Below, one piece after another: positions 17,979 to 35,242 of a stretch of 64,000 bases of DNA. This stretch comes from Roseburia hominis A2-183 (lineage in GTDB: Bacteria; Bacillota; Clostridia; Lachnospirales; Lachnospiraceae), in contig NC_015977.1 in assembly GCF_000225345.1 (NCBI RefSeq), positions 1,471,501-1,535,500 of the forward strand, read 5' to 3'. A program made the translations under genes and the position numbers. Position 1 is the first letter of the stretch. Every line of letters begins with the position of its first letter. The notes beneath the pieces are model-generated. The model was not told the DNA's origin. It did no database searches and saw only the letters and a program-made list of their open reading frames with translations.

Positions 17979-18583
17979 GGGGCTGTCACATGAGTGGCAG
18001 CCTCCTTTCATGCATAAGAAATATTAGATAAGTAATATTATAAGAGGCACACTTGGGGATTTCATGTGGAAATGCAGATGGAAATTCGGTTCAAAAAATG
18101 TGGAATTTCTAACCAACAGAATGTTTGCATCCGCGATGATCCGTGTCTTTCTAAGTTTGGAGCACTCTACGGACTGTGTCCGCAAGTCAGCAGACAATTT
18201 TAGGACTTTTGTGCGTGTCCCTTATTGGCACCTCTGAATAAAACATAACCGCGCGAAGCCGATGTTTGAGCCGGCATCTGCCATATTTTCAATAGCAGAT
18301 GCCGGCGAGTTTCGGTTCGCGCGGTTTTATATTGTCTATGAAGAGGTGCCATTAGGGACACCAGAAAGTCCGCTCATTGTCTGCGACTTGTCGGACACAC
18401 TCCGTGAGTGTCCAAACGTGGAAGAGACACGGAATTCGATGCAAACATTCAGCTGGAAGAAATACTCACATTTTTCTCCAACGAATATCCCATCTACATT
18501 TCCATCTGAAATCCCACGGTGTGATCTTCTGATAATATTACTTATCACATCCAGAGGCGTTGCCGGTCTTAAGTGGCAGCCCC
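17979..18583. repeat. Giant inverted-repeat (hairpin) element, copy 1
   Basis: An imperfect palindrome centred near 18286 that fills the space between convergent genes nfnB and the ABC permease. The strong part runs from GATAAGTAATATTA (18027-18040) to its complement ending at 18546. The innermost hairpin is AACCGCGCGAA...TTCGCGCGGTT (18247-18326) with an inner GGCATCTGC/GCAGATGCC stem. An outer GGGGCTG (17979) pairs with CAGCCCC (18577-18583). Arms match at roughly three bases in four. The left arm also contains a separate 9-bp hairpin (GGCTGTCAC/GTGGCAGCC, 17981-18002) that may terminate nfnB. Same orientation as copy 3, opposite to copy 2. I find no convincing gene inside. Confidence 0.85.
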
Positions 18584-18593
18584 TGATAGAACG

Positions 18594-19436
18594 TTATTCG
18601 AGATTCAGATGCTTTGTGATGATTCTCGCGCACACAAGGTACAAAATGACAATGACGATGATCGAGTAAATGTTGCTGGTGACAAACAGTGAACTCGGCA
18701 GGATACTTGCCGTCGATGTGGTCGTATTGTCGATCGTTGTGGTAACGGCAAAGAAATTCACGGAATTATCTCCCGACTGGAACATACCGGTTCCAAACAT
18801 GAGGATCATGGAGAAAATCTGCTGCATAAAATAGAGGACGATGCCTGCAACGAGGGAGGCAGCCACTTTATTGCTGGAGAAAAGCTGTCCGATCGAAGCG
18901 CTTGCAAACACCCAGAGCAGGTAGGTTAAGCAGGAGCAGATTACGCCCAATACCATCTGGAAGATGAAATGGAAGGAAAATACGTCCTGACCGAATAACT
19001 CCTCCCAGGCGGAAGTAAAATCCTGCCATGCGGTTCCGTGGGAGGCGCTGGCGATAAGCGCCACGATGGAGGCAGTCATCAGAGCCATGGAGAGAAACAT
19101 CCACACGAAGGAGGTTATCAGTTTTACGTGAAAGGGAGCAAGTGTTTTTACCGGGAGCGTGTGTGTCAGATATCCCTGAGCGGAATACATCGTGCGGTAG
19201 AAGTGGACACACAGGTACACGTACATCACGATAAGGACAGCAAAAATGACAAGGATATAAAGGACAATCGCGGAGACGGATAGAATGGATGCCAGTTTGC
19301 TTTCACCCGCCTGATCCAGATCTAAGGAATACAGCACCACGGAACCTACGGAGGTGGTGATGATCAGAATGGCGTACAGGATCAACATGATCTTTGCCGT
19401 GCTCTTAAATTCATATTTAAATAATTTTTTTAACAT
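18594..19436 (-). CDS. ABC transporter permease (YtrC/ABC-2-like)
   Basis: A 280-residue membrane protein with about six hydrophobic spans, starting MLKKLFKYEFKSTAKIMLILYAILI, a common N-terminus of ABC-2-type permeases. It is the last gene of a minus-strand operon: GntR regulator, ATPase, then this permease, with each start overlapping the previous stop. This arrangement matches the ytr-type systems of Gram-positive bacteria that respond to cell-wall antibiotics, though the substrate is unknown here. Its stop lies 10 bases past the outer arm of hairpin element copy 1. Confidence 0.8.
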   Translation of the reverse strand: MLKKLFKYEFKSTAKIMLILYAILIITTSVGSVVLYSLDLDQAGESKLASILSVSAIVLYILVIFAVLIVMYVYLCVHFYRTMYSAQGYLTHTLPVKTLAPFHVKLITSFVWMFLSMALMTASIVALIASASHGTAWQDFTSAWEELFGQDVFSFHFIFQMVLGVICSCLTYLLWVFASASIGQLFSSNKVAASLVAGIVLYFMQQIFSMILMFGTGMFQSGDNSVNFFAVTTTIDNTTTSTASILPSSLFVTSNIYSIIVIVILYLVCARIITKHLNLE

Positions 19437-20128
19437 CTGTATACCTCCCTGAAAAGTGCATCGACGGACTTACCGTTGTTCATACGGATATCATCCACGG
19501 ATGCGGTGAGCCGGATCTGACCGTGATCGATGAAGATGACTTCATCCAGAATATTCTCGATGTCGGCGATCAGATGCGTCGAGATCAAAATGGAAGCTTC
19601 CGGTTCGTAATTCGACAGAATGATATTTAAAATAAAATCGCGTGCTGCCGGATCGACGCCTGCGATCGGCTCATCTAAAATATACAGATCCGCATGACGG
19701 CTCATTACGAGAATCAGCTGCACTTTTTCTTTGGTTCCCTTGGACATGGTCTTCAAACGATCCGAGGCGTCAATCTGAAGTTTTCCCAACATGTCGTAGG
19801 CACGCTTCTCATCAAAATCTTCATAGAAATCGGAAAAATACCGGATAATATCGCGAACCCGCTCGTTCATATTCAGATAAGTGTGATCCGGCAGGTAGGA
19901 GATATGCTTCTTACTCTCTGCGCCGATCGGATTCTGCTGCATGAAGATGGAACCGGAGGTGGGGGCAAGCAGACCGTTGATCATCTTGATCAGAGTGGTT
20001 TTGCCGCTTCCGTTCGGTCCGAGCAGACCGATGATATGTCCGCTCTCAATGGCGAGGTTGATATGGTCGATGGCGGTTTTTTTGCCGTAACATTTGGTCA
20101 GATCTTTACATTCCAACAAGGTACTCAT
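19430..20128 (-). CDS. ABC transporter ATP-binding protein (YtrB-like)
   Basis: A 232-residue ATPase with Walker A (GPNGSGKTT), a degenerate signature (MSKGTKEKVQL), Walker B (LYILDEPIAGVDP) and the switch histidine in STHLIAD. The degenerate signature (MSKG in place of LSGG) is common in this subfamily. It overlaps the upstream regulator by four bases and the downstream permease by seven, so translation is probably coupled. Confidence 0.88.
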   Translation of the reverse strand: MSTLLECKDLTKCYGKKTAIDHINLAIESGHIIGLLGPNGSGKTTLIKMINGLLAPTSGSIFMQQNPIGAESKKHISYLPDHTYLNMNERVRDIIRYFSDFYEDFDEKRAYDMLGKLQIDASDRLKTMSKGTKEKVQLILVMSRHADLYILDEPIAGVDPAARDFILNIILSNYEPEASILISTHLIADIENILDEVIFIDHGQIRLTASVDDIRMNNGKSVDALFREVYRC

Positions 20129-20496
20129 TGTTTTTCCCCTTTCATCGTCTGATTCATGAGCGACAGGATTTCATCATTCTGAAAGCCGAGCTGCCGCATC
20201 TGTGCTAAAAATTCTTCCATTTTCTTGGTAGCGAGAGAGGTTTTTAACTGTTCTATCATATGACAATCCTCCGTGATAAAACGTCCGCTGGTCCGCCTGG
20301 AATAGACCAGACCGGTGCGTTCAAGTTCTGCAAAGGCCTTTTGCATGGTGTTCGGGTTGACGGATGCTTCCGCTGCGAGATCACGTACAGACGGAAGCTT
20401 ATCTCCCGGCTGGTAGCGGCCGGAAACGATGTCCGTCTGGATTCGTTCCACAATCTGTAAAAAGATGGGACGATCAGAATCAAGGGTCCATGCCAT
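20125..20496 (-). CDS. GntR-family transcriptional regulator, YtrA type
   Basis: A 123-residue regulator with an N-terminal winged helix-turn-helix (FLQIVERIQTDIVSGRY, LPSVRDLAAEASVNPNTMQK, SGRFIT) and a short helical dimerisation tail of about 45 residues, the hallmark of the YtrA subfamily. First gene of the regulator-ATPase-permease operon; family members repress their own operon and are induced by wall-active compounds. A consensus promoter overlapping a partial palindrome lies upstream (20524-20565). Confidence 0.9.
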   Translation of the reverse strand: MAWTLDSDRPIFLQIVERIQTDIVSGRYQPGDKLPSVRDLAAEASVNPNTMQKAFAELERTGLVYSRRTSGRFITEDCHMIEQLKTSLATKKMEEFLAQMRQLGFQNDEILSLMNQTMKGEKQ

Positions 20497-20523
20497 AGTG
20501 TCATCTCCTTTCTACTAAATCAT

Positions 20524-20565
20524 CTGTACTAATAAGATAATACAATAATACAGTAAGCGTGTCAA
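20524..20565 (-). promoter_or_regulatory. Promoter and likely operator of the YtrA-type operon
   Basis: On the minus strand: TTGACA (20565-20560), 17 bp, TATTAT (20542-20537). A partial palindrome CTGTA...TACAG (20553 down to 20524) overlaps the -10 and could be the autoregulatory operator; the operator is inferred. Confidence 0.65.
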
Positions 20566-20606
20566 CTGTTTTTTGATGACAAAAACAGCGTATTTCGTTA
20601 CGAAAA

Positions 20607-20633
20607 ATAAAAGAATGAAAAATATGACCGATA
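20607..20633 (+). promoter_or_regulatory. Sigma-28 (SigD/FliA)-type promoter of the LytTR/FliD-like cluster
   Basis: TAAA (20607-20610), 15 bp, ACCGATAT (20626-20633), against the flagellar sigma consensus TAAA-N15-GCCGATAT: 11 of 12 positions match. It ends 49 bases before the GTG start of the LytTR gene. It is the only such site I found in the intergenic regions of this window. Confidence 0.7.
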
Positions 20634-20681
20634 TATAAAGTAGAAAACAGAGCATGGATGCGAAAGCGGGGAGGAATATGA

Positions 20682-21260
20682 GTGTTATACATTGCGGCGT
20701 GCGGGAATGAGGCATCCGTGCGTAAGTATTTAAAAGAGATGGAAGGCGAATATGTAAGAGAGGATGTACAGATTCTTTGCGGAGATGAAATTGAGGGAAG
20801 CGGCACAATGCCGGATGTTCTTTTCCTTTCGGATAGTGGCATAGAGGAGTGCCAGAAAAAGATTCCAGTATGGTTCCGCAGAAAAGCGTTTGACAATGCG
20901 GGAGAACTGAAACAGAGAAAAGCAGGGGCAGAAAGGAAGCGCCCGCTGCTGATTAAAACAGACGGAACCTATTGCTGTGTGGATCAGAAAACCATTCTCT
21001 ATGCAGAGAGTGTGGGGCGTAAGGTGGTGCTTCACACAAACACGGGAATCATTGCATATTATGCCAGAATGAAGGAGGTGGAAGAAATTTTAGGCAACGG
21101 GTTTTTCCGCTGCCATCGCGGGTATCTGGTGAATTTTGCCGCGGTAAAAAGTTTTGAGGTGGGAACGATCCTGCTGAAGAACGGGGAGTCCATTCTGATG
21201 GCGAAACAGAAGTTTAATGATTTTGCGTCGGCTTATGAGACGTATCTTAACGAACGATAG
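20682..21260 (+). CDS. LytTR-domain DNA-binding protein
   Basis: A 192-residue protein whose second half (about 88-190) is a LytTR DNA-binding domain (CVDQKTILYAESVGRKVVLH, FFRCHRGYLVNF, ILLKNGESILMAKQK). The first 85 residues do not form a clear receiver domain; no phospho-acceptor pattern is obvious. GTG 20682 is used because GGGGAGG lies 8 bases upstream; an out-of-frame ATG at 20678 gives only a short peptide. The sigma-28-like promoter and the FliD-like gene behind it suggest a role in flagellar or surface-related expression. Confidence 0.82.
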   Translation: MLYIAACGNEASVRKYLKEMEGEYVREDVQILCGDEIEGSGTMPDVLFLSDSGIEECQKKIPVWFRRKAFDNAGELKQRKAGAERKRPLLIKTDGTYCCVDQKTILYAESVGRKVVLHTNTGIIAYYARMKEVEEILGNGFFRCHRGYLVNFAAVKSFEVGTILLKNGESILMAKQKFNDFASAYETYLNER

Positions 21261-21284
21261 GGATACAGAAAAGAAACGGGGAAA

Positions 21285-22052
21285 ATGAGTATGAGAATTT
21301 ATAACAGAGACCAGTCTGCCATTCTGGGTGCGAGGAACAACCGGCTGGCAAAGATGCGTGCGTTTTCCAGCAGCACAAAGACACGCGCATCATCCAAAGG
21401 AACGACGCAGAGCGCGCCAAAGAGTAAAAACTACAGGACATCTGCGTGGATGCAGTTTTTAAATCAGTTTCAAAACGGGACAGCCGTATCCGGCGACAAA
21501 ATCGTGGAGAATCAGAAAAAAAGCTACGATTATGAGATCACGGGACTGGCGGCGGAGCGTGTGGAGACGCATATGAAGCGTTTTCTGGAGGAGGGAGAAA
21601 AATCCCTTTACCAGGAGGGAGAGGACGCCGGAAAGCAGCTTACGAAGGAAATGGAAAGTTTTGTATCCGATTACAATATGATGATCCGCAAGATTGGTGA
21701 CTTGTCGGACAGTGTGGACGAGACGTATGCAAAGAAGCTGAAAACGGAGATTTCCGCGCGGGAGACCGCCTTAAAACAGATCGGAATCACGCTGGAGAAA
21801 GACGGCACGCTGTCGTTTGATAAGACGGTGTTTCAGACAGTAAAACCGGAGGCGGTGCAGAAGATTTTCGGGGATAAGAGCACGCTGTCGAACCGCGTGC
21901 AGGTGCTGGCTTCGGGTGTGAAGAGCAACTGTAGAAAACAGGCGGCAGCGCTTTCTGCAACTTCTTATATGACCAGCGGCAATTACAGCCGCTATGCGTC
22001 GGACAGTAATCAGACGCGGCAGACCGGCAGCCGCTACAATGCGAAAGGTTAG
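21285..22052 (+). CDS. FliD C-terminal-like protein (short), function unknown
   Basis: A 255-residue protein. The N-terminal 60 residues are basic and low in complexity (SSSTKTRASSKGTTQSAPKS). The middle and end resemble the C-terminal part of the flagellar cap protein FliD: FVSDYNMMIRKIGDL, then IGITLEKDGTLSFDKTVF and KIFGDKSTLSNRVQVLASG. It is much shorter than a FliD (usually over 400 residues) and lacks the N-terminal hook-contact and hypervariable regions, so it is not a cap by itself. It lies 24 bases after the LytTR gene and is followed 2 bases later by the next gene. The match is by eye; treat it as family-like. Confidence 0.6.
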   Translation: MSMRIYNRDQSAILGARNNRLAKMRAFSSSTKTRASSKGTTQSAPKSKNYRTSAWMQFLNQFQNGTAVSGDKIVENQKKSYDYEITGLAAERVETHMKRFLEEGEKSLYQEGEDAGKQLTKEMESFVSDYNMMIRKIGDLSDSVDETYAKKLKTEISARETALKQIGITLEKDGTLSFDKTVFQTVKPEAVQKIFGDKSTLSNRVQVLASGVKSNCRKQAAALSATSYMTSGNYSRYASDSNQTRQTGSRYNAKG

Positions 22053-22054
22053 GA

Positions 22055-23152: not shown

Positions 23153-23155
23153 GAG

Positions 23156-23184
23156 ATCCGGCGGAAGTATCCGCCGGATTTTTT
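23156..23184 (+). terminator. Intrinsic terminator after the LytTR cluster
   Basis: ATCCGGCGGA-AGTA-TCCGCCGGAT, a perfect 10-bp stem, then a T run. The remaining 250 bases to the next gene hold only a TATAAT at 23381-23386 without a clear -35. Confidence 0.92.
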
Positions 23185-23437
23185 CATAGGAAATTACGTC
23201 CTATGAATGAAAAAGCCCTTCGGCAGGATCTCACTGCGTCGGAGTAGAATTATGTCGCTGGAGCAACCCGCCGCAGCTTACGGAAAAGAAGCGGATGCGT
23301 TGTGTTGCGCGAGGATAAGGAATGTGTAAAAAATTAGTCAAAATAATTGAAAAACAGTAGAAAAAATAGGAGAAATGAACTATAATAAAAAAAGATTTTG
23401 AATCGATAGAGAAAGAGTGACAGGAGGGAGTAAGACT

Positions 23438-24943
23438 ATGGGTCAGACATCGGGTTCAGACAGGAATTACATTTATAAAGATAAGAGTGAACGCTACCGC
23501 TATATGAATACATTTTATATTTTTGCAGTGGTTATTTTATGGGTACTGTTTGGGGTGTATCTGCTGGCGAAGCTTGCGAGCAAGAGCATTGCGGTCGGTA
23601 CGGCGGTCGGAAATGTTGTGCTGATTATTTTATTTGCGGTGGTTGAACTGGCGTTTTATCTGCGCAATAAGTCTGATGTGAGATTAAAGAGGGTTGTTGC
23701 CATCGGTGTCGGCGTAGAATTTGCGTTGATTGGAATGCAGACAGATGCAGAGTTTATCTATTTTGCACTTATTGCCATTCTGACATTGCAGATTCCGTAT
23801 TATGATATGAAGAGATATAAACAGACCTGTATCGCTTTTACGGCGTTATTTACACTGGTGGAGGTCATTCGTGTAATCAAGGGGATTGGTTTGCAGGATG
23901 TGGACAGCTTGTGCCGGGTATTATGTGTGTATCTGTTATTTTTCATTATGTACCGGGTGGGCAGCATAGCCAAGACATTCAGCGATCATGCACTGGGTTC
24001 TGCAGCGTCCGAGGGTGAGAAACAGAAGGTGATGCTGGAAGGAATCCTTGACATCTCAAAGACTGTGCGGGATGAGTCTGAGAGGAGTACCAGTCTTGTG
24101 GATGAACTGGTGCACACTTCGGAGACAGTTGCGCAGAGCATGCAGGAGATTTCTTCCGCAACCAACACGACGGCGAAGAATATCGAAGAGCAGAATAATA
24201 TGACACAGAGTATCCAGTCGGCTATTGACGAGACGGGCGAGCGCTCCAGAAAGATGGTGGATGTGGCGACGGATTCCAATGAGAATATTCAGGAGAATCT
24301 GCAGGTAATGGAAGAATTGAAGAACCAGTCCGAGCAGATTGCGGCGACGAATCATGAAGTGACGGAGTCCATGACACGCCTGCAGAATAAGACCAAGGAG
24401 GTCGAGGAGATCGCAGGCATGATCCTCAATATCTCCAACCAGACGAACCTGCTGGCACTCAACGCATCCATTGAGAGTGCGAGAGCCGGTGAGGCAGGAC
24501 GCGGATTTGCCGTGGTTGCTGAACAGATCAGACAGCTTGCCGAGCAGACGAAGAAGTCCACGGAGGAGATTACCACGATCATCAACGAGCTGAATGAAAA
24601 TGCACGCGACGTTATGACTTCGGTGGAGTCTTCGGTGGAAGCGACAGAGAGCCAGAATGAGAAGATTGCGGTTGCGGCAGAGTCTTTTGAACGTCTGAAT
24701 GAAAATATGTCACAGCTTATAGGAGATATCAATGAGATCGCGGGACAGATCACAGGACTGTCGGATTCCAACAACCGTATTGTGGAGAATATCTCACAGC
24801 TGTCTGCAGCGACAGAGGAAGTGACTGCAAGCGCCGAGCAGGTGCGTGAGATAAGCGAGCAGAACCGGAACTATGCGGAGGAAGTAAAGGGGGCCATCGG
24901 AACGATCCGAGGCAGAACTGACGAGATGAAGCAGTTTACATAA
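23438..24943 (+). CDS. Methyl-accepting chemotaxis protein with a multi-span membrane sensor
   Basis: A 501-residue chemoreceptor with an unusual front end: residues about 25-185 form five or six closely spaced membrane helices with almost no loops, instead of an extracellular ligand domain, and no HAMP linker follows. The signalling domain has tip residues [23 protein letters not shown] 23438 has GGAGGG 9 bases upstream; a longer GTG frame from 23417 would include the ribosome site. Such receptors may sense membrane energy state or a lipophilic signal; this is inference. Its stop codon touches hairpin element copy 2. Confidence 0.9.
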
Positions 24944-25491
24944 AAAGAAAAGCGGGATCCATGATATTGTGAGATTACCCGAGAACCGAAAGTTCCGGAA
25001 TAGAACAGACGGCGGCAATTCTTTGAAGCAAAATTCATGTATTTCTTCCATGCCGTGCTTGACATCCAATTCCGTGTCTCTTCCACGTTTGGACACTCAC
25101 AGAGTGTGTCCGACGAGCCGCAGACAATGAGCGGACTTTTTGGTGTCCCTAATGGCACCTCTTCACAGACAATATAAAACCGCGCGAACCGAACTCGCCG
25201 GCATCTGCTATTGAAAACAGGGCAGATGCCGACTCAGACAGCGGCTTCGCGCGGTTATGTTTTGTTCAGAGGTGGCCATAAGGGACACACACAAAAGTCC
25301 TAAAATTGTCTGCCGGCTTGCGGACACAGTCCGTGGAGTGCTCCAAGCTTGGAAAGACATGGATCATCGAAGATGCCAAGCGCGGCATGGTTAGAAATAC
25401 CGGATTTTGCGGTCAGAATTGCCGCCGTCTGTTCTATCCGGAACTTCCAGTTATCTGCTTTCCTCCAATATTACAGATCCCGCTTCTCTTT
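24944..25491. repeat. Giant inverted-repeat (hairpin) element, copy 2
   Basis: A 548-bp imperfect palindrome centred near 25217, in the opposite orientation to copies 1 and 3. It exactly spans the gap between the convergent chemoreceptor (stop 24943) and aminotransferase (stop 25496) genes. The outer arms AAAAGCGGGATC and GATCCCGCTTCT pair with each other but share no sequence with the outer arms of the other copies; the inner roughly 350 bp is the shared family core, with the AACCGCGCGAA centre at 25178-25256. The A-run on one end and T-run on the other would make it a terminator for both flanking genes. No convincing gene inside. Confidence 0.85.
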
Positions 25492-25495
25492 AATT

Positions 25496-26584
25496 CTAAT
25501 GGAAGAGACAACGGATCAGACGGTCGTTGTCCTCTGGCTTCATAAAGCAGAGCCGGATGTATTTATTATCCAGAAACGGAAACGTCGAACAGTCGCGGAT
25601 CATCATTTTCTGCCGGATGGCGCGGTCAAACAGATCCTGCGAGGTGAGATCTTCGCGCAGGATGCGCACCAGAACAAAGTTGGCACTTGGATCGTATACT
25701 TTGAAGTCCGGATTCTTATTAAAAAGCTTACACAGGCGGGCGCGCTCGGAGGAGATCAACGATTTGGTCTCTTTGATGTAGGCGCTGTCGGTGAACATTG
25801 TCTCACCGGCGATGACAGCAAGAGAATTGATCGTCCACGGATTCTTGCGTGTATTGATGGACTTGATCAGATCGCGGTTGCCTGTGACGGCGTATCCGAG
25901 ACGCAGTCCCGGAGCGGCAAAGAACTTGGAGGTGCCGCGGAGAATCACGATGTTGTTATAATAATTTGTCAGCGGAACTGCCGTGAGTTCTGCCATATTA
26001 TCGGCGAATTCCACGTAAGTCTCATCTACCATGACATAGATGTCGTACTGCTTGCAGACGTCTAAGATGTGGCGCATGTCGCTGCGCGGGATCGAGGAGG
26101 AAGTCGGGTTGTTGGGATTGCAGATGACGAGAAGATCAATGCTCTCATTTAAGTGCGAGAGAAAATCCTCGACATTGAGCTTGAAGTCATCGGCTTCCCG
26201 CAGCGGATAATAGAGTGTGGTGCCGCCGCCCAGCGCGATTTCACGTTCGTACTCAGAGTAAGTAGGACCAATGACAAGGGCCTTTTTCGGATGCTCGACC
26301 TGAATAAAAAGGGAGATCAGCTCGGTGGAGCCGTTTCCGACAATGACATTCTCAGTCTCGGTTCCGCAGTATGCAGCGATGCATCTGCGCAGAGAAGTGT
26401 ACTCCCTGTCCGGATAGCTGGTAATGGCGTCGATCTGATCGGACAGCGTGTGTTTTAACAGCGGAGATACTCCTAACGGATTGACATTGGCGGAAAAACT
26501 GACAATTTCTTCCTTTTTAATGCCGTAGATTTCTTCTATTTTCTCGAGATCACTTCCATGAAAATGGTCCTTGTGTTTTATCAT
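25496..26584 (-). CDS. PLP-dependent aminotransferase, CobD/HisC-like
   Basis: A 362-residue fold-type I PLP enzyme. It starts MIKHKDHFHGSDLEKIEEIYG then FSANVNPLG, which matches threonine-phosphate decarboxylase (CobD) and histidinol-phosphate aminotransferase relatives. The PLP lysine is in RGTSKFFAAPGLRLGY, and the substrate/PLP motifs NGSTELI, NPNNPTSS and DETYVEF are present. CobD (cobamide side-chain synthesis) is favoured by the HGS...FSANVNPLG start, but no cobalamin genes are nearby, so a role as an amino-acid aminotransferase is possible. A minus-strand promoter (TTGAAC-18-TATAAA, 26634-26605) is divergent from that of the next gene. Confidence 0.8.
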   Translation of the reverse strand: MIKHKDHFHGSDLEKIEEIYGIKKEEIVSFSANVNPLGVSPLLKHTLSDQIDAITSYPDREYTSLRRCIAAYCGTETENVIVGNGSTELISLFIQVEHPKKALVIGPTYSEYEREIALGGGTTLYYPLREADDFKLNVEDFLSHLNESIDLLVICNPNNPTSSSIPRSDMRHILDVCKQYDIYVMVDETYVEFADNMAELTAVPLTNYYNNIVILRGTSKFFAAPGLRLGYAVTGNRDLIKSINTRKNPWTINSLAVIAGETMFTDSAYIKETKSLISSERARLCKLFNKNPDFKVYDPSANFVLVRILREDLTSQDLFDRAIRQKMMIRDCSTFPFLDNKYIRLCFMKPEDNDRLIRCLFH

Positions 26585-26612: not shown

Positions 26613-26661
26613 CTATTATAGTCATTGCGTTCAAAAAAGCAATAGAAAAGCAGGTGTCAAT

Positions 26662-29600
26662 TTGCGTAAACGGATACAACAGCTAGCAAGGGGAAAGTTC
26701 CAATACGCCAGACCGCTTCTTTCTTTTTCTGCAGATAAAGTCGACATTGAGGTGACGGAGGGTAGAGATTACACCGGAGATTTCATTATCACAAGTACGA
26801 ACCATGTGCCGTTTCGGGGAGTAGTCTATACTTCTGATTCCAGAATGGAATGTCTGACACCCCAGTTTGAGGGGGAAGAGGTGCGGATCCGGTACCAATT
26901 TCATAGCAATGGACTGATCGAAGGGGATATTGTCAAGGGGGATTTTTTTCTAATCTGCAACCAGGGAGAATATAACCTTTCTTTTGTTGTGTCTGTATCC
27001 AGATTGTATGCGGATACTTCTGCGGGACGCATTAAGAATCTGAACGATTTTACGGGACTGGCAAAAAGCAGTGCCCAAGAGGCATATCATCTGTTTTATT
27101 CCGGTCATTTTAAAAATATACTAAAGCCCTCCGAGGTCAGGGAGCGTCTTCTCTATGACGGGGAGGCGGACGGCACGGCGTCATGGCAGAAGGTGGAGGA
27201 ATATCTGCGCGGGTGCAGACAGAAAAAGCCGGTTGCGGTTACGCTTCTTGCGGATCATGCCTCATTCGAGCAGGTCGCCGGCGACCGCAGGGAGAGCCTG
27301 AAGCTGCACCGGGATGAGTGGGGCTATCTCTCCATTTCGATTGAGTCGGACGCGCCGTTTCTTTTGCCGGAAAAGAGTCAGCTGACGGATGAGGATTTTA
27401 TCGGAAGCACACTGGAAGTGCCATATTATGTGAAAAAAGCTGCCATGCATGCCGGGAAGAATTTTGGAAGACTTTCGATTGTCCTGCCGGAGCAGACGCT
27501 TACGTTTGAAGTGTGCGCCACGACGGACGGCGCAAAAGCCGTATCGGAGGAGCATCTGGAATTACAGCGCGGACGGATGCGGCTTGCACAGCTATATATT
27601 GATTACCGGCTGAAAAAGATTGTGACCGGCGCATGGGCGAATCAGTCCGTGGAGCTCCTGGATCATATGATGGCAATGGAACCGGAGTGTGAGATGTATG
27701 CGCTGATGAAAGCGCAGGCGTTGATTGTGAACCGGCAGAAGCAGGAAGCTTCGTGGATTATGGAGGATTATAAGCGCGGCTGCAGGGACAGGGAGACGCC
27801 GGAATGGGGATACTATCTGTATCTGTGCACACTGATTGAGAGGGAACCGTCCTATGTCGATAAGCTGACGGATGAGATTGAACTCCTTTTTAAGAAGAAT
27901 CCGAAGAGTTCGCTGTTGTTCTGGATTCTTTTGTTTTTGCGGGAATCCTACTATTACAGCAGTCCAAGAAAGTATAAGGCGATTGAAGCATGGATCGAGG
28001 GCGGATGCAGCAGCCCGTATCTCTATCTGGAAAGCTATTATCTGATCTGGCAGGATCCCTATCTTTTAACCAGACTGGGAACGTATGAATTGAAAGTCCT
28101 GCGGTGGGCGATGCGCCAGGGAGTCCTCACAAAGGAACTTGCACAGCAGATCAGGCATCTGCTGCCGGAGGTGCGTGAGAAGTCGCGGGTACTGTACGAG
28201 ATCTTAGAGGCGGCGTATCAGGTGGAGCCGGAGGAGGAGATGCTTTCTGCCATCTGTGCATATCTGATCCGCACACAGTGTTACGAAACCGAGTACCACC
28301 GGTGGTATGAGCTCGGAATCGAGCAGAAGATAAGGCTTACAGGACTCTATGAGGCGTATCTGATGTCGCTGGATGCGCGTGAGGTGGGCGGAGTTCCGCG
28401 CATGATTCAGATGTATTTCCAGTATGACAGTACGCTTTCCTATACGCAGAAGGCGGTCTTGTTTGTCAATATCATAGCAGCCAGAACGAAACAGCCGGAG
28501 GTATACCAGAAATATCAGCGCACGATGGAGCAGTTTGCAATGGCACAGATCGAGGCGGGGCACATCAACGATCATCTGGCGGTGATCTACGATGAGATGC
28601 TGCCCAAGGGTATACTGGATGAAGAACTGGCACACAGTCTGGCGCCGCTTTTGTTCACACACAGAATCAGCTGCACCAACCGTCAGATCGCCCGAGCCAT
28701 CATCTGGCATGAGGAGATGAAAATGCCGCAGAGCGTGTCGTTTGTGAACGGAACCGCCTATTTTAAGGCGTATACGCCACAGTATAGCATTGTGCTGGAA
28801 GATACGAACGGCAACCGGTTCTGTTCGAGTGTGGTATACCAGGATGAGGCGCTGATGTATCCGGAGCGGTATGTGGGTCAGTGTCTCTCGCTTGCACCGG
28901 GGGAGAACGCCTATCTGCTCTGGTATATGAGCAGGCATATGGAGCCGGAGGCATGGAGCGATACCGAGAAGACCTATGCATTGCAGCTGCTGCAGTCAGG
29001 CAGACTTTCCAGAACCTATCTCGTCCGGCTTGCACTTGCGCTGATTTCTTACGAGAAAAAAGACGGCAGGGATTTTTCCTATTCGGAGGGGGAACTGGAT
29101 CTGATGAAGGGGCAGCTCGCGGAGGCACTTTCCGACGTGAGTGTGCGCAGGCAGATGGCCGCGCTTCTGACGGAGAACCACCTCTATGAGAAGGCCTATC
29201 AGATGGTGCAGATCGACGGCTACGATTATCTGAAGACGGAGTGGCGCGTCTCCCTCTGCAGCTATGCGATCGCGGATCACGGCTATGAGGAGGATGATTT
29301 TCTGCTGGGATTTGCGGAGAGCACCTTCCGGCAGGGAAAATACAGCGATGTCATGCTGATTTACCTCTGCAAGTATTTTAATGGGCCGACCAAGCAGATG
29401 GCGGAATTGTGGAAAGCTGCGGGCGAATTTCAGATCGACACGTTTGATCTGGAAGAGCGGATTCTGACACAGATGCTCTATACGACCGATTACACGCCGC
29501 ATATGGAAGAGATCTACGAAAGTTATTGCGCAGGGGGCGGCAGAGATCTGGTCTGCATGGCGTATCTCTCTTATTTTGCCAATATGTATCTCACGGAGGA

Positions 29601-30210
29601 CGCCGTCGTGCCGGAGCATGTGTTCCGCCAGATCAGGGAGCGTTATCTGACCGGGGGCGATCTAAACCGCGTCTGCCGGCTTGCACTGCTAAAATATCTC
29701 TCGGAGAATCACCTGTCGGAGCGTGACAGAAAGATCGCGGACGAGCTTCTTGACACCTGCATCCGGCATAATCTGTATTTTGCATTTTTCCGGAAGTTCG
29801 ACGAAAAGCTGCTGCGCAAATATCAGCTTACAGATAAGTTCTTTCTGGAATATCACACCGCGCCGGGGCAGCAGATCGAGGTTCATTACCGGCTGGAGGC
29901 ACAGCAGGAATATCTTGCGGATGAATTGACGGAAATGTATGACGGAATCTATGTAAAAGACTTTATCCTGTTCTTCGGGGAGAAGGTTCAGTATTATATC
30001 CTGGAGAGCCAGACCGCGGACGGGCAGATCGGGGCGAGCGGCTGCCTGGGCAACGGGGATATTATGGAAGAGGGCAGCGGGGACCGCTACGCATGGCTGA
30101 ATGAGATGCTGCTGGCGTGTACGCTCGATGACAGAGAGAAGCTTGCCGGGAAGATGAAGCGCTATTATGGCATGACAAAAGTGACGGAAGAGGCATACCG
30201 GCTATTGTAG
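26662..30210 (+). CDS. DUF5717-family giant scaffold-like protein
   Basis: A 1182-residue protein of a family I know as DUF5717, of unknown function, found mainly in Lachnospiraceae. Two beta-rich domains lie near the N-terminus (about 17-112 and 225-305; SADKVDIEVTEGRDYTGDF, GRLSIVLPEQTLTFEV). The long middle (about 310-1060) is almost all helix with Leu/Tyr-rich TPR/solenoid-like spacing, interrupted by one more beta segment (about 695-735). No signal peptide or membrane span is visible, so it is probably cytoplasmic. The start is TTG 26662 (AGGTG upstream). It heads a tight four-gene operon with an actin-like protein, a TPR protein and a coiled-coil membrane protein. Confidence 0.85.
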   Translation: MRKRIQQLARGKFQYARPLLSFSADKVDIEVTEGRDYTGDFIITSTNHVPFRGVVYTSDSRMECLTPQFEGEEVRIRYQFHSNGLIEGDIVKGDFFLICNQGEYNLSFVVSVSRLYADTSAGRIKNLNDFTGLAKSSAQEAYHLFYSGHFKNILKPSEVRERLLYDGEADGTASWQKVEEYLRGCRQKKPVAVTLLADHASFEQVAGDRRESLKLHRDEWGYLSISIESDAPFLLPEKSQLTDEDFIGSTLEVPYYVKKAAMHAGKNFGRLSIVLPEQTLTFEVCATTDGAKAVSEEHLELQRGRMRLAQLYIDYRLKKIVTGAWANQSVELLDHMMAMEPECEMYALMKAQALIVNRQKQEASWIMEDYKRGCRDRETPEWGYYLYLCTLIEREPSYVDKLTDEIELLFKKNPKSSLLFWILLFLRESYYYSSPRKYKAIEAWIEGGCSSPYLYLESYYLIWQDPYLLTRLGTYELKVLRWAMRQGVLTKELAQQIRHLLPEVREKSRVLYEILEAAYQVEPEEEMLSAICAYLIRTQCYETEYHRWYELGIEQKIRLTGLYEAYLMSLDAREVGGVPRMIQMYFQYDSTLSYTQKAVLFVNIIAARTKQPEVYQKYQRTMEQFAMAQIEAGHINDHLAVIYDEMLPKGILDEELAHSLAPLLFTHRISCTNRQIARAIIWHEEMKMPQSVSFVNGTAYFKAYTPQYSIVLEDTNGNRFCSSVVYQDEALMYPERYVGQCLSLAPGENAYLLWYMSRHMEPEAWSDTEKTYALQLLQSGRLSRTYLVRLALALISYEKKDGRDFSYSEGELDLMKGQLAEALSDVSVRRQMAALLTENHLYEKAYQMVQIDGYDYLKTEWRVSLCSYAIADHGYEEDDFLLGFAESTFRQGKYSDVMLIYLCKYFNGPTKQMAELWKAAGEFQIDTFDLEERILTQMLYTTDYTPHMEEIYESYCAGGGRDLVCMAYLSYFANMYLTEDAVVPEHVFRQIRERYLTGGDLNRVCRLALLKYLSENHLSERDRKIADELLDTCIRHNLYFAFFRKFDEKLLRKYQLTDKFFLEYHTAPGQQIEVHYRLEAQQEYLADELTEMYDGIYVKDFILFFGEKVQYYILESQTADGQIGASGCLGNGDIMEEGSGDRYAWLNEMLLACTLDDREKLAGKMKRYYGMTKVTEEAYRLL

Positions 30211-30227
30211 CACAGAGAGGGGAACAT

Positions 30228-31469
30228 ATGGAACACCGGTTTTATCTGGGAATCGATCTGGATGACCAGTACGCTGTGATCAGCAGCTATGAATTGAATA
30301 AGAAAGAACCGGAGACCTTTTCTGCGATTGCAGGGAGCGAAATCTATCAGATTCCGGCGCTGATTACCAAGAAGAAAGGAATCGGGCAGTGGTTTGTCGG
30401 CGAGGAGGCAGTGCGGCTTGCCATTGCACAGGGCGAGGAGGCGAACGGCAGACTTCTCTCGCGGGCGGTCGGCGGTGAGAAGGTTTTTGTGGATGGGGAG
30501 ACCTATCCGGCGGAGGAACTGCTGACCCTCTATCTGAAAAAACTGATACGACTGGCATGCGGCCCCGACAGAAGATGGGAGCCGGAACGGCTGGTCATCT
30601 GTATGGAAAAGCTGTCGCGGGAGGCGACGGAGCTGTTCCTTTCGATGGCGCCGAAGCTTGGAATTGACCGGGAAAAGCTGCAGCTGCTTGACCGGAAAGA
30701 ATGTTTTTACTATTTTGCCTACCATCAGGTGCCGGAACTTTCGATGCACGACGTGTATCTGTTCGATTACCGCAGGGAGGATATCCGCTGCTGCAGATTA
30801 TATAAGGAAAAACGCACGACGCCGCAGCTGATCTCGCTGGCGGAGGAAGTGCGCCGGATGAATGCGGACAGCCGGGACGAGAATTTTCTTGGCATTCTAA
30901 AGGACTGCTTCCGCGGACATATTGTCTCGTCGGTGTACCTGACGGGAGACGGATTTGACGGGGACTGGATGAAACAGTCCGTGGCGTTTCTGTGTCAGGG
31001 CAGGAGAGCGTTTGTCGGGAAGAATCTGTACTCCAAGGGGGCCTGCTACGCCGCCTTGTGCAGTGAACAGCAGGAAAACTGGGATTATGTATATCTGGGT
31101 GACAATGAGATGAAAGTCAATGTCAGCTTAAAAGTCCGGAATATGGGAAAAGCAGAGTTCTATACGCTGATCAGTGCAGGGGACAACTGGTACGAGACGC
31201 AGGGAATGTGCGAAGTGATCCTTGCGGGAACGCCGGAGATTGATTTCTGGCTGCAGCCGCCGGGAACCCGGGAGGCGAAGGTGGAGAAGCTAAAGCTTCT
31301 GGATCTGCCGGAACGCCCGGACAAGGCAACGAGGCTTCGCATCACGGCAAAACCGGTTTCGGATACAAAGGTCTGGATCCAGATCCGGGATCTTGGATTC
31401 GGGGAATTATTTAAGAGTTCGGATAAAGTGTGGGATTACCGGATGGAATTTTCGGAAGAGAATCCGTAG
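30228..31469 (+). CDS. DUF5716-family HSP70/actin-like protein
   Basis: A 413-residue protein that reads as an actin/HSP70-fold nucleotide-binding domain: YLGIDLDDQYAVIS at 6-19 (phosphate-1 loop), SEIYQIPALITKK (37-49, HSP70-like), VYLFDYRRED at 176-185 where the phosphate-2 loop should be but with its glycines replaced, SSVYLTGDGFDGDW at 234-247 (adenosine motif) and VGKNLYSKGACYAA at 263-276. A beta-rich tail (about 285-400) takes the place of a substrate-binding domain. The degenerate phosphate-2 loop makes ATPase activity uncertain. It begins 17 bases after the DUF5717 stop. Confidence 0.8.
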   Translation: MEHRFYLGIDLDDQYAVISSYELNKKEPETFSAIAGSEIYQIPALITKKKGIGQWFVGEEAVRLAIAQGEEANGRLLSRAVGGEKVFVDGETYPAEELLTLYLKKLIRLACGPDRRWEPERLVICMEKLSREATELFLSMAPKLGIDREKLQLLDRKECFYYFAYHQVPELSMHDVYLFDYRREDIRCCRLYKEKRTTPQLISLAEEVRRMNADSRDENFLGILKDCFRGHIVSSVYLTGDGFDGDWMKQSVAFLCQGRRAFVGKNLYSKGACYAALCSEQQENWDYVYLGDNEMKVNVSLKVRNMGKAEFYTLISAGDNWYETQGMCEVILAGTPEIDFWLQPPGTREAKVEKLKLLDLPERPDKATRLRITAKPVSDTKVWIQIRDLGFGELFKSSDKVWDYRMEFSEENP

Positions 31470-31486
31470 AGGTGTGGGAGAAGACG

Positions 31487-32299
31487 ATGGGAGAATTGAT
31501 TCTGTGCAATCAGAATATGGCGGCATTTCCATATTATGTGGAGGAGGCGGCAATCGGCGTTTACTCGCTGGAGGAATTAAGTTATTATATCTGCCACAAT
31601 GTCTATCTGCTCCGCAGTGATTTTATGAATGAGGATCTCTGCAACTGGCTGGAACGGGAACTGAAACTAAAAGATGCTGCAGATGCCCTTCGGGAGATTG
31701 TGAGAAAAGGCGGCACCCTGTCCGAGTTTGTGACCTGTCTGCTGTCGCAGAGCGGGTATTGTGACAGAATGCAGATCGCGCAGATTGCGCAGCAGATCGC
31801 GGAGCTGGAACACAAATCCGAATACGAGTGCAGCAAGATCCGCGCTGACCGCTATGTGACAAACGGGCGCTATGCGGCAGCCGTCTCGGCGTACAGGGCA
31901 TTGCTTGCGGATCAGGAAGCGGAGAATCCGATCCTGGTCGGGAATGTCTGGCATAACATGGGAAAAGCGTATACTGGATTATTCCGGTTTCGGGAAGCAG
32001 CGGACTGTTACCGGAAGGCGTACGGACTCAATGAAAATCCGGAATCTCTCCGCGAATGTCTCTATGCGTACCGGTGTCTGCACGATGATGACGGATTCAA
32101 GAATACGGCGGCGGAATGCGGCATGACGGCAGAGGAGGCGGCGGAGGCGGCGCACAGACTTTCCGAGCTTTCCCGGACGGAGGAGATCCGTCAGTTTGAA
32201 GAGCAGGTGGACGGACTGTTTGCCGACGGGCAGGAAGATGAAATTGCAGGAATGCTTGCAGAGTGGAAAGATACCTATCGGAAAAATTGCAGAATATAG
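31487..32299 (+). CDS. TPR-repeat protein of the DUF5717 operon
   Basis: A 270-residue soluble protein. The first half (residues 1-110) is a helical domain (MGELILCNQNMAAFPYYVEE, YSLEELSYYICHNVYLLR); the second half has TPR-type helices (RYVTNGRYAAAVSAYRALL, VWHNMGKAYTGLFRFREAAD, CYRKAYGLNENPESLRECL). TPR units usually hold partner proteins together. ATG 31487 has GGGAG 7-8 bases upstream, and the stop of the actin-like gene is 17 bases before it. The name of the N-terminal domain is unknown to me. Confidence 0.8.
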   Translation: MGELILCNQNMAAFPYYVEEAAIGVYSLEELSYYICHNVYLLRSDFMNEDLCNWLERELKLKDAADALREIVRKGGTLSEFVTCLLSQSGYCDRMQIAQIAQQIAELEHKSEYECSKIRADRYVTNGRYAAAVSAYRALLADQEAENPILVGNVWHNMGKAYTGLFRFREAADCYRKAYGLNENPESLRECLYAYRCLHDDDGFKNTAAECGMTAEEAAEAAHRLSELSRTEEIRQFEEQVDGLFADGQEDEIAGMLAEWKDTYRKNCRI

Positions 32300-32314
32300 A
32301 GGAAGCGTGAAACG

Positions 32315-33484
32315 ATGTTTTTTTGGAAGAGAAAGAAAAAGGAACCTGATTTTGAGAGTAAGATGGGAGAATTAAATACAACGGTTCTCTCAAAAAAGGA
32401 TTACAAAAATACCGGTAAGATTGAACAGTACGTGGTGGAGCGCCTAGAGCAGATGATTGAGTTGACCAAGGAGCTGGACGATGAGAAGGAAGAATACCGG
32501 ATTGTGACGTCCTATCTGAACGATATTGAGACTCTGGAGAAGATACCGAAGGAAGAAAGAGATAAGATTTCTGAGATCGCGGTAAATGTGGTGCAGTTAA
32601 ACAAGGCGCGCACGGAATTTCTCAACTCCTCCAAGAAGTTGTCGGACGCGCAGTTTACACAGTTAGAGCAGCAGGAACGCGAACTGCCGGAGGCAATCAA
32701 ACGTTTTAAGACCAACGAACTGCACCGTGACACGCTGCAGAGGGATATGAAGTATCTGGAGCGGGAAAAGTCCGAGTGGAATCTGCGCAAGGAATACCTG
32801 GACCATCAGCAGAAAAAGTTAAAAAATGTGCTGTATATTATTGTCGGTCTGGCGGTGACGCTCGCGGTGGTGTTCGGAATTTTACAGATTATTCTGGAAA
32901 AGGATTTCTACTATGCGTGGATGGGACTGATCTTTGCAACTGCGGTGGTGGTGTGCGGTATTTACATGAAAATCCAGAATGACCTGTCGGAGATACAGGT
33001 GGCGGAGCGGAGCCAGAACCGTGCGATTGTTCTGCTTAACAAGGTCAAGCTGAAATATATCAATGTTGCCAATGCGGTCGATTATGCGTGTGAAAAATAC
33101 CATGTAAAAAGTGCTGGAGAACTGGAAAACCAGTGGCAGTATTATCTGGAGGCGGTCAAGGAACGCCAGAAATATCAGAGAACCAATGAGGATCTGGAAT
33201 ATTTTAACGGCAGACTGGTGCGCATGCTCTCCAATTATCAACTGTACGATGCGCATGTGTGGGTAACACAAGCAGTTGCGCTCGTCGATCCCAAGGAGAT
33301 GGTGGAGATCAAGCACGGACTGATCGGGCGCAGACAGAAGCTGCGCGCACGGATTGAGAACAATCTCTCGCAGGTCAACGAGCAGAAAGAGGAGGCAGAA
33401 CAGCTTTTAGACAAGGTCGGAAGCATGCGCCCCCAGATGGAGAAGATTTTAAATGCAGTAGATAAAATTAACGAGGGAGATTAG
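32315..33484 (+). CDS. Coiled-coil membrane protein of the DUF5717 operon
   Basis: A 389-residue protein with a basic start (MFFWKRKKKEPDFESK), a long coiled coil (about 35-165), two adjacent membrane spans (about 170-192 and 199-217; VLYIIVGLAVTLAVVFGILQ, AWMGLIFATAVVVCGIYM), and a second coiled coil (about 220-385). Both coiled coils therefore face the same side, presumably the cytoplasm. It would be the membrane anchor of the complex implied by the operon. No enzymatic motif is visible. It follows the TPR gene by 15 bases. Confidence 0.8.
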   Translation: MFFWKRKKKEPDFESKMGELNTTVLSKKDYKNTGKIEQYVVERLEQMIELTKELDDEKEEYRIVTSYLNDIETLEKIPKEERDKISEIAVNVVQLNKARTEFLNSSKKLSDAQFTQLEQQERELPEAIKRFKTNELHRDTLQRDMKYLEREKSEWNLRKEYLDHQQKKLKNVLYIIVGLAVTLAVVFGILQIILEKDFYYAWMGLIFATAVVVCGIYMKIQNDLSEIQVAERSQNRAIVLLNKVKLKYINVANAVDYACEKYHVKSAGELENQWQYYLEAVKERQKYQRTNEDLEYFNGRLVRMLSNYQLYDAHVWVTQAVALVDPKEMVEIKHGLIGRRQKLRARIENNLSQVNEQKEEAEQLLDKVGSMRPQMEKILNAVDKINEGD

Positions 33485-33542
33485 CACAAGTGAATGGGAT
33501 GCGGCATAGAGTAAAGGGAAGATATCATAATAGGAGAGCCGC

Positions 33543-33764
33543 ATGAGAAATTACAATGCAGCAGGAAACACGCGCAGCCGATGTGCGTGTGAACCGGATG
33601 CAGCTTCTGATAGACAGCCGGAATATGTGGTTGCGATGGCATATGTTCCCTGGCAGCACTTTAAAACGACCTACGAACTGGATAAGGCACTTGAAACCGG
33701 AACCATATTCCCAGAACTTGATAAGCCGTTTCTGGCAGTGGGAAGGGGGTGCAGGCGTTGCTGA
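33543..33764 (+). CDS. cotJA: Spore coat associated protein CotJA
   Basis: A 73-residue protein with the CotJA core VAMAYVPWQHFKTTYELDKALETGTIFPELDKPF, followed by a short Cys/Arg tail. It is the first gene of the cotJABC inner spore coat operon, made in the mother cell during sporulation. AGGAGAG lies 5 bases before the ATG. A CATAATA at 33526-33532 with ATA 17 bases upstream is reminiscent of a sigma-E promoter, at low confidence. It shares one base with the next gene. Confidence 0.88.
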   Translation: MRNYNAAGNTRSRCACEPDAASDRQPEYVVAMAYVPWQHFKTTYELDKALETGTIFPELDKPFLAVGRGCRRC

Positions 33765-34033
33765 TGAATCAGATGACACAGATGAACCAGGCGCAGCTTC
33801 TGCACTGGATCAATATGGTGAGCTTTGCCGTGGTGGACATCGCGGAGTATCTTGATACGCATCCCGTCGATGCGGAAGCGATCTGTTACTTCAATCATCA
33901 TATAGAAATGCACAGAAATGCCATGCAGGTGTATGCGGACAAATTCGGACCGCTGACGATTGATACGGCAAATCCAGATGCTTACTGGGATTGGGCAAAA
34001 CAGCCCCTGCCGTGGGAAGGAGGTGGCTGCTAA
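33764..34033 (+). CDS. cotJB: Spore coat protein CotJB
   Basis: An 89-residue protein matching CotJB (AQLLHWINMVSFAVVDIAEYLDTHP, ending in a WDW-containing PLPWEGGGC). The ATG at 33764 overlaps the cotJA stop as TGATG, suggesting coupled translation; an in-frame GTG at 33749 is nearer to the purine-rich GGAAGGGGG but leaves only two bases of spacing. Part of the spore coat. Confidence 0.85.
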   Translation: MNQMTQMNQAQLLHWINMVSFAVVDIAEYLDTHPVDAEAICYFNHHIEMHRNAMQVYADKFGPLTIDTANPDAYWDWAKQPLPWEGGGC

Positions 34034-34641
34034 TGTGGAATTATGAGAGACGCCTGCAGTACCCGGTCAACATCACAAGCCCCAATGCGAAGATCGCGCA
34101 GATCATTTTGTCGCAGTACGGCGGCCCGGACGGAGAAGCGGCAGCATCGTTTCGTTACCTGTCGCAGCGCTACAGCATGCCGGATCGGAAGGTGGCGGGG
34201 CTGCTGACCGATATTGGCACAGAGGAGCTGGCACATCTTGAGATGGTTGCTTCCATCGTCCGTCAGCTCACGAAAGGACTGAGTGCGGAGGAACTGGAGG
34301 AGGCGGGGTTTGCGCCTTACTATGTGGATCACACGGCGGGTATCTGGCCGCAGGCGGCGGGAGGCATTCCGTTCAATGCGTGCGAGTTCCAGTCTAAGGG
34401 CGATGCGATCACCGATCTGTTTGAAGATATGGCGGCGGAGCAGAAAGCGCGCACGACCTACGACAATATTCTGCGTCTGGTCAAGGATCCGGAGGTCTGC
34501 GACCCGATCCGCTTTTTACGTCAGCGGGAGATTGTCCACTTCCAGCGCTTCGGCGAGGGATTGCGGATGATTCAGGACGATCTCGACCGCAGTAACTTTT
34601 ATATGTGTAATCCCGAATTTGATCCGGGATGCGGAAAATAA
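34033..34641 (+). CDS. cotJC: CotJC, manganese catalase-like spore coat protein
   Basis: A 202-residue four-helix ferritin-like protein of the manganese catalase family: MWNYERRLQYPVNITSPNAK, TDIGTEELAHLEMVASIV with metal-binding Glu/His, DMAAEQKARTTYDNIL, and RFLRQREIVHFQRF for the second metal site. The residues expected to hold the dimanganese centre are present. Its ATG overlaps the cotJB stop (TAATG). The gene runs straight into hairpin element copy 3, whose left arm begins inside the stop codon. Confidence 0.9.
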   Translation: MWNYERRLQYPVNITSPNAKIAQIILSQYGGPDGEAAASFRYLSQRYSMPDRKVAGLLTDIGTEELAHLEMVASIVRQLTKGLSAEELEEAGFAPYYVDHTAGIWPQAAGGIPFNACEFQSKGDAITDLFEDMAAEQKARTTYDNILRLVKDPEVCDPIRFLRQREIVHFQRFGEGLRMIQDDLDRSNFYMCNPEFDPGCGK

Positions 34642-35242
34642 AAGGAACTGCCGCAATAAGCATATCGTACTTGGGTTTGATAAGTAATATGATCAGAAGA
34701 TTACACAGTGGGATTTCAGATGAAAATGCAGAGGAAAATTCGGTTCAAAAAATGTGGTATTTCTAACCAGCCGGATGTTTGCATCTTCGATGATCCGTGT
34801 CTTTCCAAGTTTGGAGCACTCCGCGGGTCATGTCCGCATCCCGGAAGACAATTTGTAGGACTTTTGTGTGTGTCCCTTATGGGCACCTCTGAGCAAAACA
34901 TAACCGCGCGAAGCCGATGTCTGAATTGCCATCTGCCATGTTTTTAATAGCAGATGGCAGTGAGTTTCGGTTCGCGCGGTTTTATATTGTCTGTGAAGAG
35001 GTGCCCTTAGGGACACCAGAAAGTCCGCCCATTGTCTCTGGTGTGTCGGACATGCACCCGGCGGATTGTCAAAACGTGGAAGAGACACGGAATCTGATGC
35101 AAACATTCAGCTGGAAGAAATGCTCACATTTTTTTCCAACGAATATTCCCTCTGCATTTCCACATGAAATCCCCAAGTGCGTTTCTTTATAATATTACTT
35201 ATCACCCCAAAGAGAGCTGTGCTTATTGCAGCAATTCCTTTT
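34640..35242. repeat. Giant inverted-repeat (hairpin) element, copy 3
   Basis: The longest copy: a 603-bp imperfect palindrome centred near 34941, between cotJC and the feo promoter (co-directional genes). The outermost arms AAAAGGAACTGCCGCAATAA and the complement ending TTCCTTTT (35242) pair closely. Inside are GATAAGTAATAT (34679) and its complement ending at 35203, and the AACCGCGCGAA centre at 34902-34981. In the central stem, GCCATCTGC/GCAGATGGC replaces the GGCATCTGC/GCAGATGCC of copies 1 and 2, a paired change. Same orientation as copy 1. No convincing gene inside. Confidence 0.85.

Follow-up and report, generated by a model that had tools for sequence, protein, structure and literature searches.

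The elements in the window

The complete genome of Roseburia hominis A2-183 (3,592,125 bp) contains a family of large, almost fully palindromic elements, three copies of which lie in the 64,000-nucleotide stretch analysed here (the window). In what follows loci carry L-numbers and genomes carry G-numbers. An earlier reading made from the sequence alone (the sequence-only reading) had placed the three elements at 17979–18583, 24944–25491 and 34640–35242, with the first and third in the same direction and the second reversed, and both the positions and the orientations stand.

Copy 1 (L001; 17979–18583, + strand) is located between two convergent genes, the ORFs 16561–17958 (+) and 18594–19436 (−). 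It contains a unit of 522 bp (18027–18548, +) with the ends GATAAGTAATATTAT...ATAATATTACTTATC, both types of which are found in 47 of 72 copies. Within the unit are an inner core of 191 nt (18192–18382, +) and a conserved apical internal loop, the left side of which is GATGTTTGAG (18261–18270, +) and the right side CGAGTTTCGG (18306–18315, +). Copy 2 (24944–25491, −) also lies between convergent ORFs, 23417–24943 (+) and 25496–26584 (−); its first base directly follows the stop codon of one, and it ends four bases before that of the other. Its inner core spans 190 nt (25122–25311, −), and its middle arms resemble those of L028–L030. Copy 3 (L021; 34640–35242, +) begins at the stop codon of ORF 33991–34641, a member of the manganese catalase family, and the gene that follows (FeoA) is codirectional. 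In this copy the inner core is 192 nt long (34846–35037, +), and the base stem consists of a left half, AAAAGGAACTGCCGCAATAAGCA (34640–34662, +), and a right half followed by a T-run, TGCTTATTGCAGCAATTCCTTTT (35220–35242, +).

Each of the three copies is predicted to fold as a single long rod, which bears out the proposal of hairpins of more than 200 bp; the number of paired arm positions is 240 in copy 1, 206 in copy 2 and 241 in copy 3. The predicted fold of copy 1 has an energy of −326 kcal/mol (z = −31.1) and that of its other strand −330 kcal/mol (z = −20.9), with none of 20 shuffled sequences as good in either case. The corresponding values are −325 kcal/mol for copy 2 (z = −23.6; 0 of 100 shuffles as good) and −315 kcal/mol for copy 3 (z = −21.1; 0 of 20).

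Copy number and variant forms

A DNA search located the element at no fewer than 40 places in the R. hominis genome, together with one fragment (the best 40 of 113 candidates were scored). Owing to the palindromic nature of the unit, every place gave matches on both strands. Further loci were obtained from a scan with the central 11-mer. Of the 76 loci examined after fetching, 72 have a recognizable centre, and deletion or damage has altered the other four (L051, L052, L055 and L056); L093, which had also been fetched as a locus, turned out to be a chance match. Two more copies, at 1740909 and 1853545, were detected with a covariance model, with which 47 candidates in this genome were scored. 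The core is accordingly present well beyond the window, in more than 70 copies in the genome and in other species. At approximately 550 bp each, the 74 copies make up about 1% of the 3.59 Mb genome, yet no Rfam family is matched at the cut-off.

Members of the family are approximately 520–640 bp overall. The unit is 512–525 bp long in 37 of the 47 copies with both standard ends and 547–560 bp in the other ten, which carry an extra hairpin of about 33 bp close to the centre (the L049 type). The extra hairpin (GACATAAAGGTGGC..., about 909–945 in L049) looks like a nested module confined to a subset of copies. The inner core measures 185–194 nt in 64 of 77 cores extracted from three genomes, and 219–224 nt where the extra hairpin is present. 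There are no standard ends in 25 of the 72 copies, and in L055 and L057 the arms are exchanged relative to the ends. We also note an IS110-type insertion with an open transposase frame (418 amino acids) inside L048, next to the centre (about 1315–2845 of the locus; G000:C1 about 1988314–1989844). A short repeat, GATGATATAATGAATC..., occurs in tandem beside the deleted form L051 (about 710–980) and again, reversed, at the remnant L056 (about 775–850).

The family is non-coding. No conserved reading frame was found, and neither the gaps nor the copy lengths are multiples of three. The longest open stretch has a median of 103 codons (81–154 in 47 copies), falls on either strand and varies in place, and six ORFs from the element gave no match in Pfam. 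No Rfam family matched the window at the gathering score; relaxing the E value to 1 brought up four weak matches, to families of miRNA and sRNA, all far below their cut-offs. No description of such a family was met in the literature searched, which left out most subscription papers. The sequence-only reading, which proposed a regulatory or non-autonomous mobile element of a form not yet described, is thus supported by the copy number, the lack of a conserved frame and the lack of an Rfam match.

Constraint on the folded shape

A consensus structure calculated with RNAalifold from 36 copies of the R. hominis genome has 173 pairs, 68 of which show two-sided change. We also aligned 40 sequences from 12 genomes (alignment A4; 44 pairs). 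In A4, the structure of which was taken from the same alignment and is therefore somewhat favoured in the test, 91.3% of cells are paired, compared with 38.0–44.4% in slid controls, and 40 of the 44 pairs have changed on both sides. The covariation score is 0.689, against 0.227 for shuffled alignments (0 of 500 as high) and 0.10–0.14 for slid ones, and there are 467 two-sided cells against 147.8 after shuffling. The number of further pair types (108, against 102.2) was equalled in 39 of the 500 shuffles. Among the full-length matches listed for the 12 genomes, the covariance-model match spans 139–167 nt.

Across these genomes the letters of the helices are rewritten while pairing is kept, and the unpaired loop modules retain both sequence and polarity. 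On the strand of copy 1 the modules are CTTTYGTG with CTAGRAA, CTTR with TTAG, GAACAAAAC with TTTGTGA, and TGTYTGAG with CGAGTT, the exact form being absent from some genomes. The asymmetry of the TGTYTGAG/CGAGTT apical loop, scored with a loose pattern, is intact in 71 of 72 copies in R. hominis and in 38 of 43 copies in other genomes; of the five exceptions, four belong to the single genome G143, in which the loop is different. In our view, the best reading of these alignments is that the element is preserved for its folded shape.

Strand signals

A functional RNA is expected to tolerate G·U above A·C mispairs on its own strand. Such an RNA, made from the strand of copies 1 and 3, present in many copies per genome and acting with a partner protein, would be consistent with the internal loops, whose polarity is conserved over 12 genomes, and with the consensus fold, which reaches −61.4 with 44 pairs on this strand and −47.0 with 38 pairs on the opposite one. 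For the 35 pairs common to both strand folds, G·U exceeds A·C across species (30 to 18). Within the R. hominis genome, 36 copies also depart from the usual pair more often by G·U (128 to 86), although on a fold that itself favours G·U, and the same bias applies to the count for the RNAalifold structure alone (53 to 21). The remaining counts run the other way or are even. The common pairs give 33 G·U to 39 A·C within the genome, the singletons among the departures give 21 to 29, and isolated mispairs over the whole arms number 81 to 94 in the 42 copies taken from other genomes; the 72 R. hominis copies have 137 to 221. On the transcribed strand of 24 copies between codirectional genes the figures are 51 and 52 (51 and 51 in the 23 copies without L048). 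Promoter-like sites are not in excess in copy 1, the sole copy scanned (two sites, 1.8 expected). A discrete RNA of this kind is unlikely in our judgement; the RNA signature is not clear, and we lean towards a constraint acting at the DNA level or on both strands. One promoter-like site, ATGAAA and TATAAT separated by 17 bases (window 18037–18065), points outward at the end of copy 1 and may be there by chance.

Divergence and pairing of the arms

The sequence-only reading had described the same arms of different copies as closer to each other than the two arms of one copy, and had concluded that the arms diverged once, before the copies spread. From the 25 copies without standard ends we chose by eye 11 with private outer arms, here called old; seven damaged copies were excluded and seven were placed in a comparison set of 54. 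In the inner half of the 11 old copies the description holds (160.9 between copies, 135.7 within a copy). In their outer half it fails, the values being 132.0 within a copy and 54.2 between copies (23.1 for shuffled sequences). The outer arms of the comparison set score 129.5 within a copy and 111.2 between copies. Since the private outer arms of the old copies are paired within their own copy, a simple single divergence of the arms before spread does not describe the family.

The tempo of change was followed in 36 copies compared in all pairs, which are not independent of one another. Between copies that are 93–98% alike one-sided changes dominate (59 and 467, compared with five and 105 two-sided changes). 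Below 84% the differences are mainly two-sided, and 83–91% of these are still paired; at 78–80% there are 2747 two-sided changes, 2433 of them still paired, against 1385 one-sided changes. This is the pattern to be expected if insertions decay but the fold has to be maintained in the lineages that spread, with some contribution from direct repair. The many related copies form an unusually clear record of joint change in the two arms, one that separates selection from template switching.

In L024 of R. hominis and L261 of G378 the centres are homogenized between the arms, and they look like products of template switching. Proposals exist that this process both generates and maintains the stems of hairpins (in the account given in PMC8794818) and that it homogenizes arms (in that of PMC8604942). 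An old repeat without function, its arms alike solely through template switching during replication, would fit with both proposals and with the presence of homogenized centres in the family. It was already strained by the loops: homogenizing would erase unpaired loops, yet the apical loop is kept in the 71 of 72 and 38 of 43 copies given above, and across genera. We consider this explanation very improbable.

Distribution and history

A DNA search recovered the element from one of 40 relatives with one query and from three of 62 genomes of the genus with another. Covariance models extended this range; as 47 or seven candidates were scored per genome, the copy numbers are lower bounds. Model R1 matched nine of 62 Roseburia genomes, namely R. 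hominis, G013, G059, G062, G065, G068, G069, G074 and, marginally, G020 (28.7 bits). In a sample of the family there were matches in five of 397 genomes (R. hominis, G143, G163, G251 and G378), and in a sample of the order model R2 matched three of 392 (R. hominis, G378 and, on the model score alone, G329 at 45.7 bits), all from the same family. With the marginal G020 left aside, matches to the models are found in seven of the 61 other Roseburia genomes and in five genomes of other genera in the family.

An early scan of named genomes with a narrower pattern gave no matches, and a later exact-pattern scan returned 30 stretches, including 18 from Lachnospiraceae RGIG8607, six from Roseburia sp. 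bin_11_LilbubCat, three from RGIG9039 and two from SUG84. The one stretch from Flavobacteriaceae (L289) is not confirmed by the model. Judged by its 18 stretches with 19 exact-pattern matches (L286, L287, L291–L294, L296, L298, L299, L302, L304, L306, L308, L309, L311 and L313–L315), the RGIG8607 draft is a second high-copy genome, and all 17 of the 18 stretches that were given to the model were confirmed. A viral or plasmid source was considered and set aside: copy 1 is unmatched in phage and plasmid records, and the model confirms none of three pattern matches in viral contigs. We note that the loci L222 and L230 (G059) and L252 and L259 (G143) stop inside or just past the element, apparently at a contig end. 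Draft assemblies probably break at the element, so that copies are undercounted.

In a tree of 40 cores, eight of them from R. hominis, the genome labels need 11 changes, the smallest number that could occur (28.8 on average after shuffling; none of 200 shuffles gave so low a value), and the eight R. hominis cores form one clade (100/97). Counted singly, G062 needs two changes and G069 three, and G074 is nested within, with the long branches unsure. The grouping by genome suggests amplification or homogenizing within genomes. G378, which belongs to another genus, is placed among the Roseburia copies (99/97), and this placement hints at transfer. Comparison of the flanks of nine copies from relatives with those of R. 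hominis copies revealed a common site on both sides in two cases, on one side in one case and a weak match of 141 bases in one further case. At a site matching that of L003, a relative has no element nearby. From the genome-specific amplification and the patchy presence we infer that the element is mobile.

Placement at gene ends

The copies are found chiefly at the 3′ ends of genes, above all in the spaces between convergent genes. Neighbouring genes were classed with a simple ORF caller, and some short neighbours may be spurious. For the 70 R. hominis copies so classed (L092 has no context and L010 lacks one neighbour) the arrangement is convergent in 43, codirectional in 24 and divergent in three. 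If L048 is set aside, in which the caller had taken the inserted transposase as the neighbour, 43 of 69 are convergent. As a baseline, 45 of 362 gene pairs are convergent in 400 kb of the relative G069 and seven of 52 in the window. The preference is weaker in other genomes, where 36 of 42 copies could be classed (12 convergent, 19 codirectional and five divergent, with six unclassed).

The base of the element has the stem followed by a T-run that characterizes an intrinsic terminator. We inspected 148 sides, 79 of which lack the base-stem anchor; a T-rich tail is present on 53 of the 69 sides with an anchor, against a background of 15%, the stem itself supplying two or three T after the anchor. 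In 18 of the 28 copies with both anchors the tail is found on both sides. A cruder way of finding the ends, which overshoots them, gave 37 T-rich sides of 148 (background 13%). The idea that the outer stems are host terminators split by insertion was rejected. When the fetched stretches (462 kb unique, 510 kb counting overlaps) were scanned strictly, 70 terminator-like hairpins outside the element were obtained, of which just one has a motif of the CTGYCGC/GCGRCAG type; the base stem therefore looks element-borne.

These features could also describe a module that serves the host at gene 3′ ends, either a giant two-way terminator or an mRNA-protecting hairpin, selected at its sites and spread by gene conversion. 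The placement at gene ends with little spare sequence, the T-rich tails on 53 of 69 anchored sides, the private outer arms of the 11 old copies, which are still paired, and the two sites occupied in both species are all in keeping with it. However, the transcribed strand of codirectional copies shows no preference for G·U, the element is oriented with respect to codirectional genes at 14 to 10 (13 to 10 without L048), near copies differ mainly on one side, and 54 of the 62 genomes of the genus give no convincing match. We also know of no reason why a terminator should need a conserved rod of 500 nt. Such a module is a doubtful but serious alternative.

Mobility and comparison with known repeats

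The interpretation that we favour, by a modest degree of belief, is a non-autonomous mobile hairpin that resembles a REPIN in its behaviour, is much larger and serves as a two-way terminator as well. The folded single strand, either RNA or DNA of the lagging strand, would be recognized at its conserved internal-loop modules by a factor provided in trans, which would copy the element into the space after a gene, where the harm is small. The base stem, with an A-run before it and a T-run after it, would provide intrinsic termination for the genes on either side. Template switching between the arms would repair mismatches, so that the helices drift together, and selection would keep the asymmetry of the loops. 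A more specific form of this proposal is a class of selfish elements that moves as one folded strand of 500 nt, is read at its loop modules by an enzyme acting in trans and pays its way as a terminator for convergent genes; this we put forward more tentatively, as a possibility worth pursuing. If the element is mobile, it points to a so far unknown enzyme that handles long folded strands, and if it is a terminator it illustrates the way in which convergent genes are insulated.

Several observations weigh against a mobile hairpin. By eye there is no target duplication at the element ends, the exact positions of which are blurred by the base stem. No autonomous relative was found at the 60 outer-end sites in the R. 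hominis genome, where the lone longer unit (2.1 kb) encloses the IS110-type insertion. The 11 old copies are paired as well as the 54 others (132 compared with 129.5), a finding that mobility by itself leaves unexplained. In every similarity class, including the closest (five, against 0.6 expected), two-sided changes are more frequent than independence predicts, and repair therefore acts at single sites too. The grouping of copies by genome could also arise from gene conversion. Copies that share a site are not nearest relatives, and shared sites may therefore mean hot spots or old copies that were later homogenized. The relative's site that matches L003 carries other DNA as well and is not a clean empty site. 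An IS200/RAYT-type driver was rejected, since PF01797 is found in 22 of the 62 genomes irrespective of whether they carry the element; it is absent from the carriers G069, G065, G059 and G074 (drafts that are 94–99% complete).

The sequence-only reading had noted no transposase nearby, and by Pfam there is none among the ten neighbouring proteins, one of which has no match at all. The R. hominis genome also has a gene for an SbcD-type nuclease, although long palindromes are generally considered unstable in the presence of SbcCD. The idea that a genome must have lost SbcCD to carry the element was rejected, because the 29 of 62 genomes above the SbcD cut-off include the carriers G000, G062, G065, G068, G069 and G074.

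As outlined in PMC3116915, REPINs are doublets of REP sequences that form hairpins, are extragenic and are taken to be non-autonomous; PMC3733652 describes them as two inverted REP units of 20–40 bp each with a spacer. The present element is likewise extragenic, hairpin-forming and found many times per genome, with compensatory changes on both sides, as in the REPINs of PMC3116915. It differs from the REPINs outlined there in that its unit of 512–560 bp is symmetric throughout rather than two short REPs and a spacer, and also in its several conserved internal-loop modules, its terminator-like base and its lack of association with a RAYT-type transposase. The Bor repeats (26–30 bp) and the Ype and Efa repeats, which are called larger than REPs, are presented in PMC1590033 as stem-loop repeats near gene 3′ ends. 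The element shares this form and location, but it is a covarying rod of 500 bp, unlike any of the three as described in that source.

Bacterial MITEs are characterized in PMC10969869 as typically shorter than 500 bp, with terminal inverted repeats of about 4–30 bp and flanking direct repeats. In common with the MITEs outlined there, the element is non-coding, multi-copy and intergenic and has terminal inverted repeats, and its many copies and terminal repeats could suggest the remnant of an ordinary DDE transposon. Unlike MITEs, it is a palindrome that covaries over the whole unit, no direct repeats or duplication were seen by eye, and no parent transposon with matching ends was found in the R. 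hominis genome. From one species to another the termini change but the inner core is retained, and we give this origin hardly any credence.

The large structured bacterial RNAs OLE, GOLLD and HEARO are hundreds of nucleotides long and have covarying helices and conserved loops. The element is similar in all three respects. It differs from them in having no Rfam match at the cut-off, in forming a single rod and in its inconsistent preference for G·U.

A neighbouring gene as the partner of the element was also considered and rejected; the recurrent clusters of neighbours, named by eye, are common families (ABC transporters, AraC-type regulators and chemoreceptors). Near copy 2, the region 26662–30210 of the window encodes a large protein in two parts that belongs to DUF5717, a family to which no function is assigned.

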